From Microbacter margulisiae (GTDB lineage Bacteria; Bacteroidota; Bacteroidia; Bacteroidales; Paludibacteraceae), in assembly GCF_014192515.1 (NCBI RefSeq), contig NZ_JACHYB010000002.1:930001-994000 (forward strand): a DNA stretch of 64,000 nt. The letters run 5' to 3'. Made by a program: the position numbers and the translations under genes. Below, piece by piece: positions 1,393 to 42,617 of this stretch. The notes beneath the pieces are model-generated. The model did no database searches and was not told where the DNA came from. It was given only the letters and a program-made list of their open reading frames with translations. The first letter of the stretch is position 1, and each line of letters opens with the position of its first letter.

Positions 1393-1944
1393 ATGAGCGC
1401 TGCTTATTTTTATCCAGAATCTGCTTTACTGCCATTTCGTTCGATTATTCATCCGATGCAACAGATGAATATTGTTCCCGATATAAACCGGCAAACATCA
1501 ATATCCATTGCTATGCTTCTCCGCACAGTCCGGGTCTTACAAAATGACATAGCTTTTATGCAATCCGGGATTTACCCTATGCAATGTTACACAGACTCTG
1601 TGCAACGTGGAATTCACCCTGTGTCATGTTACACAGGTGCAATGCAACGTAACATTTACACTGTACCATGTTACCCAGATACAATACCACGTAACATTAA
1701 CCTTATGCAGCGTTCCATAAGAACTGTGCAACGTGGAATTTATCTTATGCAATGTTCTACTGACATTATACAACATGGAATTTTCCTTGTGCACCATTAC
1801 ATCGGTAGTATGCAACGTGGAATTCACCCTGTGCAACGTTGCACAGACCTTATACAACGTCGCACAGACAGTTTACATTCTATGCTTTACATCATGGGCA
1901 GTGATACACATAGCGTTCTTATAAACAATCAATTATTCACTTAA
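1393..1944 (+). CDS. Heptad-repeat protein of unknown function
   Basis: I do not recognise this gene. The frame is open from GTG 1363, but ATG 1393 just after the promoter-like site is the better start (183 residues). From base 1558 to 1893 it consists of sixteen consecutive 21-bp units, each giving seven residues that start with Met, Val, Ile or Leu. Units alternate between a MQRGIHP-like and a VQCYTDS-like type, so the larger period is 14 residues. There is no signal peptide or membrane segment. The stop lies 12 bases before the fibronectin-III-like gene at 1957, suggesting co-transcription. Tandem units like these can gain or lose copies. It could be a non-coding repeat that happens to be open, as a reverse frame (1624-1857) is also free of stops. 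Confidence 0.5.
   Translation: MSAAYFYPESALLPFRSIIHPMQQMNIVPDINRQTSISIAMLLRTVRVLQNDIAFMQSGIYPMQCYTDSVQRGIHPVSCYTGAMQRNIYTVPCYPDTIPRNINLMQRSIRTVQRGIYLMQCSTDIIQHGIFLVHHYIGSMQRGIHPVQRCTDLIQRRTDSLHSMLYIMGSDTHSVLINNQLFT
1558..1893 (+). repeat. Sixteen 21-bp tandem repeats
   Basis: Units start every 21 bases from 1558 (for example 1600, 1726, 1810, 1831, 1852). The best-conserved core is a TGCAACGTGGAATT-like sequence alternating with a TGCAATGTTACACAGA-like sequence. Units are diverged from one another, so the array is old or fast-evolving. Bases 1829-1846 form a perfect 18-bp palindrome. Confidence 0.85.
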
Positions 1945-32782: not shown

Positions 32783-32894
32783 TCAGCAGAAATCGGTGAG
32801 CATGTCGATACAAGAGGGAATCAGGTAGGTCATCATGAAGAAGCAGATTTTCCGATAGGCAGAACAGACCACATGCATGGACGGGGCATTGATC
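32783..32894 (-). pseudogene. Detached 3' end of the LuxR-type gene
   Basis: On the minus strand, immediately outside the first IS256 copy, a frame reads KINAPSMHVVCSAYRKI... and stops at 32783. Its first bases, GATCAATG, are the 8-bp sequence at which the LuxR-type gene is cut at 35212-35219. Joining the two pieces with one copy of the 8 bp keeps the frame and gives a 264-residue protein. It is therefore the missing C-terminus of that gene, separated by IS insertion and inversion. Confidence 0.75.
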
Positions 32895-34344
32895 GGTAGT
32901 GTCCAAAAATTTGTGTAAACGCATTCTTATCTCATTTATTATTATTTTTTCTTTTCGAATCCCCTCTCAAAATTTTTGAGGGGTTTGAAAAGAAAAAACT
33001 TCCGTTTTTATTTTATTCTTAAACTAGTGTCACTAATATTTGCTCTATCAGGATATAAAATCATAAACTGATTGGCAATCAATGGCCAGTTGGAAACTTT
33101 TGCACTCCAAGATATTGAGGCTTGTTGGATCGCCAGATACACTGCTTTTTTCATTGCCTGATCATCAGGAAACATCAATTTATTTTTGGTGTATTTGCGT
33201 ATGCTTCGATTTAGATTTTCAATCACATTAGTGGTATAGATAATCTTTCGTATTTCGGCTGGATAGGTAAAATAGGCTGTCAGATTTTCCCAATTTGCAA
33301 TCCAGGATTTAATGGCATAAGGATATTTCTCTCCCCATTTAGTTTCCAATTCAGCAAAAGCTTCCCCAGCAGCATCTAAGTTTCGGGCCTGATACACTTG
33401 TTGAAGATCATGCATAAAACTCCGTTTTTCCTTTGTCCCAATATAGTTCATCGTGTTTCTTATCTGATGAACAATACATAATTGTGTTACTGTTTCCGGA
33501 AACACAGCCTGAATAGCCTGGGTTAGCCCTTTCAGATTATCTGAACAGGCAATTAAAATATCTTTCACCCCTCGTTTCTTCAAATCATCCAACACGTTCA
33601 TCCAAAATGAAGCCGATTCAGTTTCATTGATCCACATACTAATAACTTCTCTATGTCCATTGGTATTTAAACCGATAATCAGATAAACGCTTTTACTTAT
33701 TATCTTACCTCCTGAACGAACTTTGATACGAATACCATCTAACCAAACAATCAGATAAGTATCATCCAATGGACGGGTTTGCCAGGCTTCTACATCGCTC
33801 ATTACCTGATCTGTGATATTGGATATGGACGAAGAACTGATAGTGACACCATAAATGTCTTTTATCTGAGCTTCTATGTCACGAGTCGACATGCCTCGTG
33901 CATACAAAGAAATCACAACGCTTTCTATCTTGTCTATTACTTTTTGACGCTTGGGCAAAACGATGGGATTAAACTCACCCTGACGATCGCGGGGAACCTC
34001 TATAATTATTTCTCCACTACTGCTCTTTACTAACTTGCGGGTTTTTCCATTACGAGAGTTCCCACTGCCATTTCCTTTGACTGAGTGCTTGTCGTAGCCA
34101 AGATGTTCGCTCAACTCACTTTCTAACATCTTTTCTACTCCCCGCTTAAATAGCTTATCCATAAAACCATTTATGTCTTGCATGGTCTTGAAACCCTTGA
34201 AAAAATCTGTTGGTAACTGGGAGAAAAGTGCCTCATCTTCTGCACTCAATTTTGATAATACTGATTTCTGCTTTTTCATGTCCTTTTTTTTCTGTTATAA
34301 AAATAAGCATTTATTTCTATTTACACAGTTTTTTGGACGGTCTC
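32895..34344 (-). mobile_element. IS256-family insertion sequence, copy 1
   Basis: 1450 bp bounded by imperfect ~25-bp inverted ends that begin GGTAGTGTCC (outer) and GAGACCGTCC (inner); both share GTCCAAAAA and TGTGTAAA. It carries one transposase gene. An identical-looking copy lies inverted at 35220-36669. The flanking 8 bp CATTGATC on the left is not repeated on its right but is found, inverted, beside copy 2, showing that the segment between has been inverted. Confidence 0.9.
33008..34279 (-). CDS. IS256-family (mutator-type) transposase
   Basis: 423 residues. Catalytic DDE residues are D181 (IVWLDGIRIKV), D247 (ILIACSDNLKG) and E354 (NVIENLNRSIRK), with the conserved CIVHQIRN motif between the second Asp and the Glu. 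The protein is identical to that of the second copy, so the duplication is recent. A promoter-like sequence at 34464-34471 in the inverted segment points into this gene. Confidence 0.95.
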   Translation of the reverse strand: MKKQKSVLSKLSAEDEALFSQLPTDFFKGFKTMQDINGFMDKLFKRGVEKMLESELSEHLGYDKHSVKGNGSGNSRNGKTRKLVKSSSGEIIIEVPRDRQGEFNPIVLPKRQKVIDKIESVVISLYARGMSTRDIEAQIKDIYGVTISSSSISNITDQVMSDVEAWQTRPLDDTYLIVWLDGIRIKVRSGGKIISKSVYLIIGLNTNGHREVISMWINETESASFWMNVLDDLKKRGVKDILIACSDNLKGLTQAIQAVFPETVTQLCIVHQIRNTMNYIGTKEKRSFMHDLQQVYQARNLDAAGEAFAELETKWGEKYPYAIKSWIANWENLTAYFTYPAEIRKIIYTTNVIENLNRSIRKYTKNKLMFPDDQAMKKAVYLAIQQASISWSAKVSNWPLIANQFMILYPDRANISDTSLRIK

Positions 34345-34463
34345 AGCCATTTCTTTTTGTGTCTGAATAACTGTTTGTCATCTAAGAATATATAAAATGG
34401 TAATATTTATACGCTGAAATATTATGGTTATTTATGTATAAATACAAGCCCATTGTTTGGTGG

Positions 34464-34471
34464 CAAAGATA
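34464..34471 (-). promoter_or_regulatory. -7 element now facing IS copy 1
   Basis: CAAAGATA on the plus strand reads TATCTTTG on the minus strand. In the present arrangement it points toward the first IS256 transposase; before the inversion it would have pointed toward the fibronectin-III-like gene. Confidence 0.4.
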
Positions 34472-34528
34472 ATTATCCCGTATTTTGAAAAAAATAGCGA
34501 AAAGGGTGATGTTTTTATATTTAATACT

Positions 34529-35269
34529 ATGCATTCATTGATAAAAAAATTTGAACAACTGGTGTCAGAGTACGAATGTGAGGTGACGCCCGAAATGGAA
34601 GCAAAATGGGAAGGGATACGCCATGCATTGGAAGTGTCGGCACGCCATGTAGACCGCCACAGCACAGTATTTGACCTGCATGAGGGGAGCTACCGGATCC
34701 ATCCGTTTATGGAAGAGGGATTGACCTCGACAAAGCAGATTATGAAACGAATTCTGGATAAAACGCACCCCGACGACAGGTTCCATGCTATTGATACCGA
34801 GCTGAAAGGCTACGAATACCTGCAATCCATGCCACCGGGGCAATGCAACAATTTCCGGCTTTCATACCAGAGGCGTTATATCGACCATGAAGGCAACTAT
34901 CAGATATGTCTCCATTCGTCTGTGGTACTGTTGACGGATGTGGCACAAAAGCCATGGCTGATCCTGACCCATACCGAAAAATGGTATAACCCGAAACTGG
35001 AGCGGTTCAACCCGATGCGGCAGTGCCTGCCTTTTCCGCCGCGAGGGATACCTCACCCGTTTTATGCCTTCAAAAAACGGTCATGCTTCACCTCGCGCGA
35101 AAAACAAATAATGAAACTCAAGGAAAAGGGCTACTCCATCAACGGGATTGCCTCGATGCTGGATATTGACATCAACACCGTGAAAACACACCTGAGCAAT
35201 TTGCTGAAAAAGATCAATGGAGACCGTCCAAAAAACTGTGTAAATAGAAATAAATGCTTATTTTTATAA
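34529..35269 (+). pseudogene. LuxR-type regulator with PAS-like sensor part, 3' end replaced by IS sequence
   Basis: The frame is open from TTG 34457, but ATG 34529 (MHSLIKKFEQ) is the better start. Residues about 30-190 resemble a PAS-like sensor (HPDDRFHAID..., FRLSYQRRYIDHEGNY), and the end is a LuxR/GerE helix-turn-helix (FTSREKQIMKLKEKGYSING...NTVKTHLSNLLKKIN). From 35220 the frame enters IS copy 2, so the last 16 residues (GDRPKNCVNRNKCLFL) are IS-derived. The original C-terminus is at 32783-32894 on the minus strand. The recognition helix survives, so partial function is possible. It probably once lay divergent from the fibronectin-III-like gene. Confidence 0.8.
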
Positions 35270-36669
35270 CAGAAAAAAAAGGACATGAAAAAGCAGAAAT
35301 CAGTATTATCAAAATTGAGTGCAGAAGATGAGGCACTTTTCTCCCAGTTACCAACAGATTTTTTCAAGGGTTTCAAGACCATGCAAGACATAAATGGTTT
35401 TATGGATAAGCTATTTAAGCGGGGAGTAGAAAAGATGTTAGAAAGTGAGTTGAGCGAACATCTTGGCTACGACAAGCACTCAGTCAAAGGAAATGGCAGT
35501 GGGAACTCTCGTAATGGAAAAACCCGCAAGTTAGTAAAGAGCAGTAGTGGAGAAATAATTATAGAGGTTCCCCGCGATCGTCAGGGTGAGTTTAATCCCA
35601 TCGTTTTGCCCAAGCGTCAAAAAGTAATAGACAAGATAGAAAGCGTTGTGATTTCTTTGTATGCACGAGGCATGTCGACTCGTGACATAGAAGCTCAGAT
35701 AAAAGACATTTATGGTGTCACTATCAGTTCTTCGTCCATATCCAATATCACAGATCAGGTAATGAGCGATGTAGAAGCCTGGCAAACCCGTCCATTGGAT
35801 GATACTTATCTGATTGTTTGGTTAGATGGTATTCGTATCAAAGTTCGTTCAGGAGGTAAGATAATAAGTAAAAGCGTTTATCTGATTATCGGTTTAAATA
35901 CCAATGGACATAGAGAAGTTATTAGTATGTGGATCAATGAAACTGAATCGGCTTCATTTTGGATGAACGTGTTGGATGATTTGAAGAAACGAGGGGTGAA
36001 AGATATTTTAATTGCCTGTTCAGATAATCTGAAAGGGCTAACCCAGGCTATTCAGGCTGTGTTTCCGGAAACAGTAACACAATTATGTATTGTTCATCAG
36101 ATAAGAAACACGATGAACTATATTGGGACAAAGGAAAAACGGAGTTTTATGCATGATCTTCAACAAGTGTATCAGGCCCGAAACTTAGATGCTGCTGGGG
36201 AAGCTTTTGCTGAATTGGAAACTAAATGGGGAGAGAAATATCCTTATGCCATTAAATCCTGGATTGCAAATTGGGAAAATCTGACAGCCTATTTTACCTA
36301 TCCAGCCGAAATACGAAAGATTATCTATACCACTAATGTGATTGAAAATCTAAATCGAAGCATACGCAAATACACCAAAAATAAATTGATGTTTCCTGAT
36401 GATCAGGCAATGAAAAAAGCAGTGTATCTGGCGATCCAACAAGCCTCAATATCTTGGAGTGCAAAAGTTTCCAACTGGCCATTGATTGCCAATCAGTTTA
36501 TGATTTTATATCCTGATAGAGCAAATATTAGTGACACTAGTTTAAGAATAAAATAAAAACGGAAGTTTTTTCTTTTCAAACCCCTCAAAAATTTTGAGAG
36601 GGGATTCGAAAAGAAAAAATAATAATAAATGAGATAAGAATGCGTTTACACAAATTTTTGGACACTACC
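35220..36669 (+). mobile_element. IS256-family insertion sequence, copy 2
   Basis: 1450 bp, same ends as copy 1 but opposite orientation, inner end GAGACCGTCC at 35220 and outer end GGACACTACC at 36669. No matching target duplication flanks it: the right flank TCACATTC has no partner. Its right end lies inside the fibronectin-III-like gene, so an adjacent deletion is likely. Confidence 0.9.
35285..36556 (+). CDS. IS256-family (mutator-type) transposase
   Basis: 423 residues, identical to the product at 33008-34279, with the same DDE residues (D181, D247, E354). Starts at ATG 35285, 65 bases inside the IS. Intact and presumably active. Confidence 0.95.
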   Translation: MKKQKSVLSKLSAEDEALFSQLPTDFFKGFKTMQDINGFMDKLFKRGVEKMLESELSEHLGYDKHSVKGNGSGNSRNGKTRKLVKSSSGEIIIEVPRDRQGEFNPIVLPKRQKVIDKIESVVISLYARGMSTRDIEAQIKDIYGVTISSSSISNITDQVMSDVEAWQTRPLDDTYLIVWLDGIRIKVRSGGKIISKSVYLIIGLNTNGHREVISMWINETESASFWMNVLDDLKKRGVKDILIACSDNLKGLTQAIQAVFPETVTQLCIVHQIRNTMNYIGTKEKRSFMHDLQQVYQARNLDAAGEAFAELETKWGEKYPYAIKSWIANWENLTAYFTYPAEIRKIIYTTNVIENLNRSIRKYTKNKLMFPDDQAMKKAVYLAIQQASISWSAKVSNWPLIANQFMILYPDRANISDTSLRIK

Positions 36670-37264
36670 TCACATTCGCTACACAGATAGCGATCTGAAT
36701 GTGAAAGCGACGGTCATTGAGGAGAGTCTTACCGACAATCCCAATTTTCCGACGCTTGCCACCGAGGTGCCTCTCATCAAGGGCCTGAATGACCAGCTTG
36801 CAACTGCAATCATTAAGGCAAAAGATGGAGGGCATCAGGATGTGTTTAACAAAAATGAAGCCCGCAAGGCTTTGGAGGCGCAACTGAAGTCAACAGGCCT
36901 GCTGGTGCAAAATGTCAGCAAAGGCGACGAGTCGCTGATCCTGAGCGCGGGCTATGATGTAAACAAAACGCCTTTGCCGATAGGCCCGCTTCCTAAGCCG
37001 GAAAACCTGAAGGCAAAGGCCGGCGACAACCATGGAAGCCTTATCGTAAGCTGGAATGTGATACCGGGTGCTTACCTTTATGAGGTAGAATACATGGAAT
37101 CGCCTGTGACAGCAACCAGTGTCCGCATGCACGTTTCGTGCAGCAAACACAGTGTGACTATTGATAACCTGACCCCGGGGAAAATGTACAGCATTTTCGT
37201 GGCAGGGGCCGGCTCCGACCCGCGGCGGGTGTGGAGCGACGAACTGACCAGTTACATTATGTAA
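36670..37264 (+). pseudogene. Fibronectin type III-like protein, 5' end removed by IS copy 2
   Basis: The frame is open from the IS edge and reads HIRYTDSDLNVKATVIEES before the GTG at 36701; no proper start remains. The N-terminal helical region (NPNFPTLATEVPLIKGLNDQL...) resembles residues 30-75 of the protein at 1957-2571. A fibronectin-III-like domain follows (about LKAKAGDNHGSLIVSW to YSIFVAGAGSDPRRVW). About ten codons and the promoter appear to be lost. A strong terminator follows at 37345. GTG 36701 could still allow translation if transcription comes from the IS. Confidence 0.75.
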
Positions 37265-37387: not shown

Positions 37388-38426
37388 CTATTTTCCGAAG
37401 AGGAATCCTTTATTTTAGCTTGTGTAAATATTCTACCTCATAACCTTTAGATTACAAAATATTAAGTGTATGTTTGTGGGGAGAAAAGGGATATAAGATT
37501 TTTTCCAGTCGGATTTGCAAAACCGACGAGAAGGGAATTTATACAGTAGCGAAAAAGCAACAGGAAACAGGATAATAAAACAGATCGCAGGGCTAACGCC
37601 CCTTATTATCAACGAAGGAACCATTTGCTATTAAGATTACAGGACTACGTCCCTATAGATTGAAGGATCGAAGGATTGAAGGAATGAGGATATAGAATGT
37701 TGAAACAAACAACATCATAAGGAGCGTAGCTCTGGCATCTTCGTAGGATAAAACGATAAACAACATAAAAAGGGGCATAGCCCTGACATCTTAATATTAT
37801 GGCAAAATATACCTGACTCCCTTTTCCTGTTAGATTTGTAATTGACGGAATAATATCATCTAATACAAGCATACGGAAACAAAAACAACGGCAAACAGGA
37901 TAATAAATTAGATCACAGGGCTAACGCCCCTTATTATCAACGAAGGAACTATTTGCTATTAAGATTACAGGACTACGTCCCTATAGATTGAAGGATCGAA
38001 GGATTGAAGGAATGAGGGTATAGAATGTTGAAACAAACAACATCATAAGGAGCGTAGCTCTGGCATCTTCGTAGAATAAAACGATAAACAACACAAAAAG
38101 GGGCGTAGCCCTGACATCTTAATAATATGGCAAAATATACCTGACTCCCTTTTCCTGTTAGATTTGTAATTGACGGAATAATATCATCTAATACAAGCAT
38201 ACGGAAACAAAAACAACGGCAAACAGGATAATAAAACAGATCGCAGGGCTAACGCCCCTTATTATCAACGAAGGAACCATTTGCTATTAAGATTACAGGA
38301 CTACGTCCCTATAGATTGAAGGATCGAAGGATTGAAGGAATGAGGGTATAGAATGTTGAAACAAACAACATCATAAGGAGCGTAGCTCTGGCATCTTCGT
38401 AGGATAAAACGATAAACAATATAAAA

Positions 38427-38448
38427 AGGGGCGTAGCCCTGACATCTT
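38427..38448 (+). repeat. REP element upstream of the HUH transposase
   Basis: AGGGGCGTAGCCCT palindrome followed by GACATCTT, directly before the transposase start codon. It pairs in inverted orientation with the element at 38921-38943. Confidence 0.75.
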
Positions 38449-38454
38449 AATAAT

Positions 38455-38922
38455 ATGGCAAATACATACACCCAACTTTACGTACAATTCGTTTTTTCTG
38501 TCAAAGACAGGGAAAATCTGATCAAAGAAAAATTCAGGAATGAATTGGAAAAGGAAATATGTGGCATTATTTCCAACAATAAATCAAAAACTTATGCTAT
38601 TTATTGCAATCCCGATCATACGCATGTTTTCGTGGGGATGCACCCTGCAATATCTCCTTCAAAACTGATGGAACAGGTAAAATCAGGTTCATCAAACTGG
38701 ATGAATGAGAAAAAAGTTATTCCGGGAAAATTCTCCTGGCAAGATGGTTTTGGTGCATTTACCTACTCCAAATCACATATTGACAAAGTGGTGAAATACA
38801 TCCTAAACCAACCTAAGCATCATAGAAAGCAATCATTTCGGGAGGAATACCTATCGTTCCTGGAAAAATTTGAGGTTGATTATGATCCTAACTATCTTTT
38901 TGAATGGTATGCCAATGATTAG
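38455..38922 (+). CDS. REP-associated IS200-like tyrosine (HUH/Y1) transposase
   Basis: 155 residues. The HUH motif is H55-T-H57 in CNPDHTHVFVG, and the catalytic Tyr is probably Y115 in KYILNQPKHH. Such RAYT proteins cut single-stranded DNA at REP hairpins. This gene is bounded on both sides by inverted REP elements and sits in the third unit of the repeat array. The start ATGGCAAA is shared with the non-coding version in all other units. Intact, so it may be the agent that spreads these repeats. Confidence 0.9.
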   Translation: MANTYTQLYVQFVFSVKDRENLIKEKFRNELEKEICGIISNNKSKTYAIYCNPDHTHVFVGMHPAISPSKLMEQVKSGSSNWMNEKKVIPGKFSWQDGFGAFTYSKSHIDKVVKYILNQPKHHRKQSFREEYLSFLEKFEVDYDPNYLFEWYAND

Positions 38923-38943
38923 ATCACAGGGCTAACGCCCCTT
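38921..38943 (-). repeat. REP element downstream of the HUH transposase
   Basis: CAGGGCTAACGCCCCTT, inverted relative to the upstream element; overlaps the transposase stop codon. Confidence 0.75.
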
Positions 38944-40477
38944 ATTATCAACGAAGGAACCATTTGCTATTAAGATTACAGGACTACGTCCCTATAGATT
39001 GAAGGATCGAAGGTTTGAAGGAATGAGGGTATAGAATGTTGAAACAAACAACATCATAAGGAGCGTAGCTCTGGCATCTTCGTAGAATAAAACGATAAAC
39101 AACACAAAAAGGGGCGTAGCCCTGACATCTTAATATTATGGCAAAATATACCTGACTTCCTTTTCCTGTTAGATTTGTAATTGACGGAATAATATTATCT
39201 AATACAAGCATACGGAAACAAAAACAACGGCAAACAGGATAATAAATTAGATCGCAGGGCTAACGCCCCTTATTATCAACGAAGGAATCATTTGCTATTA
39301 AGATTACAGGACTACGTCCCTATAGATTGAAGGATCGAAGGATTGAAGGAATGAGGGTATAGAATGTTAAAACAAACAACATCATAAGGAGCGTAGCTCT
39401 GGCATCTTCGTAGGATAAAACGATAAACAACACAAAAAGGGGCGTAGCCCTGACATCTTAATATTATGGCAAAATATACCTGACTCCCTTTTCCTGTTAG
39501 ATTTGTAATTGACGGAATAATATCATCTAACACAAGCATACGGAAACAAAAACAACAGGGAACAGGATAATAAAACAGATCGCAGGGCTAACGCCCCTTA
39601 TTATCAACGAAGGAACTATTTGCTATTAAGATTACAGGACTACGTCCCTATAGATTGAAGGATCGAAGGATTGAAGGAATGAGGGTATAAAATGTTGAAA
39701 CAAACAACATCATAAGGAGCGTTAGCTCTGGCATCTTCGTAGAATAAAACGATAAACAATATAAAAAGGGGCGTAGCCCTGACATCTTAATATTATGGCA
39801 AAATATACCTGACTTCCTTTTCCTGTTAGATTTGTAATTGACGGAATAATATCATCTAATACAAGCATACGGAAACAAAAACAACGGCAAACAGGATAAT
39901 AAAACAGATCACAGGGCTAACGCCCCTTATTATCAACGAAGGAACTATTTGCTATTAAGATTACAGGACTACGTCCCTATAGATTGAAAGGATTGAAGGA
40001 TTGAAGGAATGAGGGTATAGAATGTTGCAACAAACAACATCATAAGGAGCGTAGCTCTGGCATCTTCGTAGAATAAAACGATAAACAACACAAAAAGGGG
40101 CGTAGCCCTGACATCTTAATATTATGGCAAAATATACCTGGCTTCCTTTTCCTGTTAGATTTGTAATTGACGGAATAATATCATCTAATACAAGCATACG
40201 GAAACAAAAACAACGGCAAACAGGATAATAAAACAGATCGCAGGGCTAACGCCCCTTATTATCAACGAAGGAACCATTTGCTATTAAGATTACAGGACTA
40301 CGTCCCTATAGATTGAAGGATTGAAGGAATGAGGGTATAGAATGTTGAAACAAACAACATCATAAGGAGCGTAGCTCTGGCATCTTCGTAGAATAAAACG
40401 ATAAACAACATAAAAAGGGGCGTAGCCCTGACATCTTAATATTATGGCAAAATATACCTGACTCCTTTTTCCTGACC

Positions 40478-41287: not shown

Positions 41288-42617
41288 ATGAAAAAAAACG
41301 CCGGAAAGTATATTGGAACTGATAAGGAAAAGAGTATTTTCGCAAGAAATAGTTTTACAGTTCAAAATGTTAGAGACAGATTTTACAAGAAACAGGAAGC
41401 AATCATTTCATAGTGCTATTGTCTTTATGATAAATTTTCTCACTAAAAGTCTTTCGGTTGAGATAACTAACTTTATTAGTTTCATAAAGTACAATATGCC
41501 TGGTGCTTCGATAAATGGTATTACAAAAAGTGCTTTTGTACAGTATCGAAAAAAAATAAAACCTGAAGTATTTAAGTCACTTTCAGATAGTTTGATTGAG
41601 GAGTTTTATACAGACAATGATGCATCGATAAAGCTCTGGAATGGATTTAGGTTGTTGGCTATTGATGGGTCAAGATTGGTTTTGCCCGATACACAGGAGT
41701 TAGAAAGCATTTATGGTAAGACCAGAAATCAATCTGAAACCGGGGTGGTACAGGCCAGAATATCGGTATTGTACGATGTTTTGAATCGGTTTGCCATAGA
41801 TGGTGTTTTAGCTCCACTGTCAACTGGAGAGAGTGTTTTGGCGTTGAATCATTTGGTTTTTGCAAAAGCTAACGACTTGATTATTTACGATAGAGGTTAT
41901 CCTTCTTTCAATTTGATTTATGAGCATTTTGAAAAAGGAGTAGATTTTCTCATTCGGGTTAAAGCTGATTTTAGTAACCTCACCCGGGAATTTTACCAGA
42001 GTGGACTACAGTCAGCTATTGCTCGAATGCAACCTGGAAAGAACATAAAACTGTCGGATAAACAGTATTCGAAGAATGCATTCAAAGAAGTTCGGTTGGT
42101 TCGGGTTGAACTACCTGATGGAGAAATAGAAATACTAATAACTTCTTTGTTTGATTCAAAAAAATATCCAGTCTCTTTATTTAAAGAACTGTATTTTTTA
42201 AGGTGGGGAGTAGAAACATTTTATGATGAATTGAAGAACAAGATAAAAATAGAACATTTTTCAGGCTATTCAGAGCATTGTATATTGCAGGATTTTTATG
42301 CAGCCTTATTTGTGTCAAACGTTCAGAGTTTAATCGTTGGAGACATAAATGATGAATTAGCCAAAGAGTCAACCAAATATCAATATCAATATCAATACAA
42401 AGTCAATAGCAATTTATCATACGGCTTTCTCAAAGACAGGATAATTTTATTGTTTTTCTCGGAAAAGGATATGGACGAAATAGTATCAGAACTCAAAGCG
42501 TTGTTTAAAAAACACACAATACCAATACGACCAAATAGAAGATTTGAAAGAGATACTGACAAATACAGAAAAAGAGGTAAACCGAAGTTGCTGAAAAACA
42601 ATAAAAATACTTTCTGA
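41288..42617 (+). CDS. IS4-family transposase, start obscured by a frame change at A8
   Basis: The main frame (from TTG 41313) encodes 434 residues with DDE residues D118 (LLAIDGSR), D193 (IIYDRGYP) and E301, the last in the YREK signature Y294-R297-E301-K308. The only good ATG (41288) is in another frame and ends after 43 codons. Between them is a run of eight A residues (41291-41298); with seven A, ATG 41288 would run into the main frame as MKKTPESILELIRKR. Either transcriptional slippage at the A-run, use of TTG, or a small deletion/insertion explains this. Full length otherwise. Confidence 0.85.

Follow-up and report, generated by a model that had tools for sequence, protein, structure and literature searches.

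The DNA stretch analysed here (the window; 64,000 nucleotides, positions 930,001 to 994,000 of contig NZ_JACHYB010000002.1 of Microbacter margulisiae) contains two inverted copies of an insertion sequence (IS) of the IS256 family, two fragments assigned to one LuxR-type regulator gene (luxR) and a gene for an fn3-domain protein (fn3) that lacks its 5′-end. The genome containing the window, called G000, is 3.56 Mb in length and is assembled in two contigs (C1 and C2). The following features were assigned at the locus.

32783..32894, minus strand: 3′-end of luxR including the stop, plus one copy of the 8-bp duplication (from frame and stop; the tail comparison is weak)
32887..32894: target duplication CATTGATC left of IS copy 1 (from flank comparison of the IS copies)
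32895..34344, plus strand: IS256-family element, copy 1, transposase on the minus strand at 33008-34279; identical to copy 2
34345..34486, minus strand: luxR upstream DNA, 89% identical to the DNA directly left of the IS copy at G000:C1:2161470-2161610
34345..35219: 875-bp segment, inverted relative to its flanks (swapped duplication; divergent layout of homologous pairs)
34529..35219, plus strand: 5′ part of luxR, 230 complete codons; the helix-turn-helix (HTH) match ends at PF00196 position 46 of 57
35212..35219: GATCAATG, partner of the duplication at 32887-32894 (from flank comparison of the IS copies)
35220..36669, minus strand: IS256-family element, copy 2, transposase on the plus strand at 35285-36556 (NCBIfam transpos_IS256)
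36669..36670: putative deletion junction, approximately 490 bp gone relative to locus L038 (intergenic DNA that probably bore an array, and about 10 fn3 codons)
36671..37264, plus strand: fn3 gene without its 5′-end (Pfam PF00041; homologues P0001 and P0002; alignment; frames)

The transposase matched the NCBIfam profile NF033543 at 424 bits (copy 2 protein, cut-off 150), which places the element in the IS256 family, and also PF00872 (Mutator) at 383.5 bits. In the terminal inverted repeats 19 of 25 end bases agreed when counted by eye. The first-pass annotation had described the two window copies as inverted and identical in their proteins, and they proved to be exact reverse complements across all 1,450 bp, with the transposase frame open in both. 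Seven further copies were found in G000: five full-length and identical, one slightly lower-scoring and one interrupted by another IS. A 44-bp IS-end fragment at G000:C2:1250395 (93% identity) was excluded from the copy count and from the examination of arrays. Each of the seven copies was flanked by its own direct duplication, 8 bp long, or 9 bp in two cases. At L080 (6426-9354) two copies in the same orientation lie 29 bp apart beside a tandem array, each with its own duplication, and at L084 (6117-9089) a copy of the window's IS harbours a nested, related IS256 element, whose transposase is 41% identical.

Copy 1 is flanked by CATTGATC on the left and AGCCATTT on the right; when copy 2 is read in the orientation of the IS, GAATGTGA adjoins its L end and CATTGATC its R end. 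The 8-mer at 32887-32894 and its reverse complement at 35212-35219 both directly abut the IS boundary, as had been pointed out before. When the 18 outer ends of the nine copies were compared for exact 8-bp pairings, only five self-pairings and the pairing of the copy 1 L end with the copy 2 R end were detected (the two 9-bp self-duplications were read off the flanks, outside this test). The probability of a random 8-bp match is 4^-8, or approximately 1.5e-5 per comparison, before the handful of possible pairings is taken into account. Thus, CATTGATC is one original duplication now divided between two copies, which is the expected effect of inverting the DNA between them. Solely after re-inversion of 34345-35219 does copy 1 have a normal target duplication, and the same operation brings both luxR pieces into one frame, just as predicted in the first-pass annotation.

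The 5′ part of luxR carries an HTH match to PF00196 (GerE; profile positions 3-46 of 57, 41.4 bits, cut-off 23.5), and a complete C-terminal HTH is not present in the gene as assembled. Its missing end would lie apart at 32886-32783, a minus-strand piece that stays in frame across the 8 bp and then runs into a stop codon. The earlier arithmetic for the joined gene was correct: 34529-35219 plus 32886-32783 gives 691 + 104 = 795 bases, which correspond to 264 residues. Copy 1 sits in luxR about 34 codons before the stop, and copy 2, inverted, lies beyond the opposite end of luxR, at the intergenic region. The earlier statement that an IS-bounded inversion split the LuxR gene stands as regards the inversion and the origin of both pieces from one gene; the split, however, would have been made by the insertion of copy 1, and the inversion merely scattered the pieces.

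In the assembled orientation luxR and fn3 are co-directional, and they become divergent once 34345-35219 is re-inverted. In all five fn3 pairs inspected in the own genome and in genus-mates, a LuxR gene adjoined fn3 on the opposite strand (open reading frames, ORFs, were checked for three). Loci of fn3 homologues were also examined in three partly overlapping sets, comprising 30 family and 30 order loci, each among more matches, and nine loci from named genomes (the Bacteroidetes loci used of 15; L181-L186, from other groups, were left out). A LuxR match was present upstream of fn3 in 19 of the 30 family loci (within approximately 1.5 kb) and in eight of the nine named loci (within 2.5 kb), that is, in 27 of 39 loci of these overlapping sets, and all 27 were divergent. 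Re-inversion therefore restores the layout of the relatives, which is independent support for the inversion. Considering the swapped duplication, the shared frame, and the restored divergent layout, we found good support in the sequence comparisons for the inversion and for the origin of the two pieces from a single LuxR-type gene. At order locus L189 a weak LuxR match (E 0.008) was found in the other orientation, and some of the LuxR homologues also carry a PAS-like domain. At E ≤ 1e-10 the fn3 homologues were patchily distributed (20/200 family genomes and 18/295 order genomes). In three relatives AnmK was present (72-73% identity), and neither luxR nor fn3 was found in the 10.5-11.5 kb around it.

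Copy 2 has no duplication in the assembled or in the re-inverted orientation. Recombination between two complete insertions should exchange both duplications, and an exchange was found for copy 1 and not for copy 2. A partner for copy 2 was sought at the other IS copies, and none with at most one mismatch occurred among the 18 ends. The nearest was the L038 site (AATGGCTT), which is shifted by one base and has the IS in the opposite orientation within flanking DNA of 89% identity; we read it as a probable second insertion at a similar target rather than as an exchange with copy 2. At L038 (G000:C1:2161470) the 142 bp of upstream DNA have been retained, as have the start of fn3 and an intergenic region in which a degenerate tandem array repeats with a 21-bp period, although its fn3 is a remnant that ends soon after this start. 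The DNA directly left of the IS at L038 shares 89% identity with the right flank of copy 1 (34345-34486), and the L038 DNA lying 492 bp right of the IS shares 90% identity with the 50 bp that adjoin copy 2 on its right. According to this spacing, the neighbourhood of copy 2 is short of about 490 bp, covering the remainder of the intergenic region together with some 10 initial fn3 codons, and copy 2 has apparently lost its own duplication together with this DNA. The window luxR-fn3 locus has no 21-bp array, and no L038-like unit occurs anywhere in the window; judging by L038, the array was probably lost in the deletion.

The homologues of the window fn3 extend about 10 residues further N-terminally. 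No ATG, GTG, or TTG is in frame within the IS end, the first possible start being an internal GTG at 36701. Since fn3 has lost its start and luxR is split, both genes of the pair look broken. The predicted structure of the fn3 protein (predicted local distance difference test score 84, predicted template modelling score 0.51) consists of helices and an fn3 domain, and the PDB structures listed as matches were fn3 domains or proteins containing them, which suggested no function. PADLOC gave no match for fn3; for two LuxR homologues it gave nothing more than weak CARF matches, which cover their HTH part.

Based on these results, we consider it probable that a divergent luxR/fn3 module was wrecked at this locus through an inversion by the IS and an adjacent deletion. 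As part of this explanation, the ancestral module would have consisted of luxR on one strand and fn3 on the other, with intergenic DNA between them in which relatives usually have a 21-bp array. Copy 2 would have inserted into this intergenic region beside the array, like other copies of this IS, and copy 1 could have reached luxR, 875 bp away, by a short hop. An adjacent deletion would have removed the array and the fn3 start beside copy 2, and crossing-over between the identical inverted copies would have turned the 875-bp segment; the events may have followed in this order. The outcome would be a luxR whose DNA-binding domain lacks its end, an fn3 without its start, and a promoter region facing away. 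In the intact module, the LuxR protein would putatively control fn3 by binding its own array as a multi-site operator in which each site takes up 21 bp (two helical turns). IS-mediated inversions between inverted copies, with exchange of target duplications, belong to general IS biology, and the inversion itself is an ordinary, textbook rearrangement. The window shares with the known cases the identical inverted copies, the turned segment, and the exchanged duplication of one copy, but differs in that the second duplication was apparently lost with adjacent DNA.

Several observations weigh against this history. The remaining flank pair (AGCCATTT at 34345 and TCACATTC at 36670) is mismatched in both orientations, which rules out that two intact insertions underwent a clean inversion. 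Both the deletion and the figure for its length were deduced from a single related locus, L038, and the orientation is taken from the assembly. Twelve of the 39 family and named fn3 loci had no LuxR match, nor had 27 of the 30 order loci when approximately 1.5 kb upstream was scanned by script (the three positives include L195, a 7-residue match judged not believable). At L040, L078, and L079 a LuxR homologue is present without fn3. Finally, the C-terminal piece of luxR fitted the tails of distant homologues weakly, with a negative summed similarity (−4.1).

This last value was obtained by comparing the C-terminal piece with the tails of 11 distant LuxR homologues (rows L004, L008, L010, and L011 were omitted, as was L006, which was unplaced in the alignment), with stop-free six-frame stretches of the window as the null; it is at the same time the refutation check named in the first-pass annotation, applied to distant homologues. 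Only 2.2% of these stretches scored as well as the C-terminal piece, or 5.4% when two shared residues were omitted, and the present, IS-derived ending of luxR scored lower (−10 vs. −4.1). The comparison would therefore favour the C-terminal piece, and its support is weak because no close luxR homologue was found. Searches for a close intact homologue in 60 relatives and the own genome gave distant matches only (11/61 genomes; 21-47% identity, with the higher values over the HTH alone), and none was found at E ≤ 1e-3 among 133 protein-database candidates or in the genome-contig search.

The same traces could have been left by a replicative inversion, in which copy 1, residing in luxR, transposed intramolecularly to the intergenic region and thereby generated copy 2 and the inversion, with loss of DNA at the target. 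This route yields the same swapped duplication for copy 1, leads to identical traces once the second duplication is lost, and accounts for two identical inverted copies so near each other, each with an open transposase frame. However, a new duplication would also be expected at 34345/36670 and is absent there, and all seven other copies have their own direct duplication, as after simple insertion. Moreover, IS256 elements move via circles and are not known to move mainly by replicative fusion. We consider replicative inversion unlikely. The proposal of the first-pass annotation that recombination between the copies was the cause is thus supported for the inversion, but crossing-over is inseparable from replicative inversion because the second duplication, which both predict, is missing. 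Another explanation, which we find quite improbable, is that the chromosome actually has the re-inverted order and the 875-bp segment was misplaced between the 1,450-bp inverted repeats during assembly. Short reads are ambiguous for such segments, but the genome is assembled in two contigs, in which nine copies of the IS, two of them 29 bp apart, and 51 DDE_Tnp_1 matches were resolved; the two contigs and the resolved copies suggest a long-read assembly. It is hardly credible that no inversion occurred, the 8-mers matching by coincidence and the two frames being unrelated: copy 2 lacks a duplication in any case and the tail fit is weak, but the chance of 1.5e-5 per 8-mer comparison, the perfect duplications at 7/7 other copies, the shared frame, and the restoration of the divergent layout seen in relatives all speak against it.

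With the inversion and deletion as the preferred explanation of the locus, the more interesting part is the recurring fn3-21-bp array-LuxR module and the closeness of the IS to such arrays. The five inspected pairs each carry a 21-bp-period array, and the unit is different in each. Arrays with a period that is a multiple of 21 were present upstream of fn3 in 25/30 family, 8/9 named, and 21/30 order loci; in the family scan periods of 20 and 22 were also allowed, and all 25 positive loci had a multiple of 21. In a systematic 400-kb sample of the genome, three strong arrays (score at least 100) were found as background. No such array was detected at family loci L150, L155 (cut by contig end), L160, L161, and L167, at named locus L174, at the four order loci L195, L201, L211, and L213, all cut by the contig end, and at order loci L205 (the window itself), L189, L190, L212, and L214. 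Contrary to a strict 21-bp period, L213 has a strong period-20 array (score 333). The period-126 repeat at order locus L192, counted as a hit, lies more than 1 kb upstream, has similar repeats downstream, and is probably coding. Weak downstream repeats (score 50-65) were seen at L167, L168, and L169, an additional downstream 21-bp array at order locus L198, and extra repeats of other periods at L177, L197, L209, and L210.

Several array units looked near-palindromic by eye, and the consensus of the L074 array contains an 18-bp perfect palindrome, CATTACGGATCCGTAATG. The arrays of L080 and L038 have similar units, and no Rfam match was obtained for six array loci. Arrays exist outside the module too, as L081, L083, L084, L109, and L110 have 21-bp-period arrays without an fn3 or LuxR match in the DNA examined. 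We propose that the array is the putative phased operator of the neighbouring LuxR protein. At window positions 1570-1877, an array of 42/21-bp period lies directly upstream of a second fn3-like ORF (1957-2571); no minus-strand ORF of at least 100 amino acids occurs before 2715, hence no divergent LuxR frame.

Tandem binding sites about two helical turns apart beside the gene of a DNA-binding protein are familiar from the iterons of plasmid origins. The arrays described here resemble iterons in spacing and in the neighbouring regulator gene, but they are chromosomal, the regulator is LuxR-type, and its binding is putative. The BrickBuilt element of Porphyromonas gingivalis is described in the abstract of its report (PMC4596501) as a 23-nucleotide unit within a miniature inverted-repeat transposable element (MITE) that has inverted-repeat ends. 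It is likewise an intergenic minisatellite of about two helical turns that occupies many loci in a member of the Bacteroidales, whereas the present arrays have a 21-bp period and locus-specific units, and lie upstream of fn3, often with a divergent LuxR gene. The 23-nucleotide BrickBuilt unit does not apply to them, their period being 21 with different units, and the words "fibronectin" and "LuxR" do not occur in the main text of that paper. In the open-licence literature searched, nothing was found on an fn3-array-LuxR module or on IS256 elements beside tandem arrays.

The window's IS has the transposase profile and the 8-9 bp duplications of the IS256 family, but differs in that its six insertion sites outside the window (seven copies) all lie beside 21-bp arrays, the nearest array being 87, 4, 121, 9, 199, and 33 bp from the IS end. 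The six sites in which this association is counted are also those in which it was noticed. As control, 20 loci drawn from the 51 DDE_Tnp_1 matches (several copies of the same elements among them) were inspected, and none had a 21-bp array within 1.5 kb on either side, while some had weak short repeats with a period of 17, 22, 23, or 27-28. The 400-kb sample takes in one of the six sites (that of L081, through L088) and one pair (L075, through L091); depending on the score threshold, 0.5-0.9% of its positions are no more than 200 bp away from such an array. At four of the six sites fn3 could not be detected (it is present at L038 and L082, while L080 shows nothing beyond a weak match to the HTH, E 0.0037, within a larger frame), thus the association is with arrays and not only with the module.

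The closeness may be passive, if arrays merely mark long, dispensable intergenic DNA where insertions survive without any targeting; this we regard as a serious possibility, somewhat short of an even chance. It agrees with the distances of 4-199 bp and with the duplications, which mostly differ in sequence and make any preference of the IS at most regional. It agrees also with the behaviour of other elements. A second IS256 element of G000 (41% identical transposase) had a 21-multiple array (score at least 100) at 3/9 loci, approximately 0.6, 1.3, and 2.5 kb from the transposase frame, and a weak one (score 56) at a fourth locus (a tenth copy, nested in the window's IS, is outside the nine loci counted), and so shows no tight association with arrays. 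No relatives of the window's transposase at E ≤ 1e-150 were found in 199 other genomes of the family, and for the two found in 393 genomes of the order (54 and 53% identity), which are distant, the 4.2 and 2.7 kb examined contained no 21-bp array. At this level of similarity (E ≤ 1e-150), the affinity for arrays is thus seen in one genome only, which, like the behaviour of the second element, weighs against a general rule. On the other hand, 6/6 sites within 200 bp of an array contrast with 0.5-0.9% of the sample and with 0/20 control loci, and even if 10% of the genome is assumed to be insertion-tolerant, the chance of six array-proximal sites of six remains below 1e-6.

We suggest, tentatively, that some Bacteroidales carry many copies of an undescribed regulatory module, made up of a helical-bundle/fn3 protein, often a divergent LuxR gene (in the window's family), and a hypervariable 21-bp array, and that the IS256 element homes to these arrays regardless of their sequence, via a bound protein or DNA shape, and inactivates modules, of which the window would contain one destroyed. 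The unit would change between loci while the period stays fixed at 21 bp, as if each regulator had kept its own phased operator. If this wider pattern were true, it would represent repeated regulator-target pairs whose putative operator sequence diverges at a spacing fixed at two helical turns, as well as an IS with regional targeting to arrays that are alike in period and mostly not in sequence. Such targeting would suggest that the signal is a bound protein or the shape of the DNA.

Downstream of fn3, a 328-bp unit is repeated in tandem eight to nine times at window positions 37553-40474, and an ORF for an IS200-like transposase (Y1_Tnp, PF01797) lies inside this array at 38455-38922. Further downstream, at 41313-42617, there is a DDE_Tnp_1 transposase ORF belonging to another IS family (G000:C2:971643).

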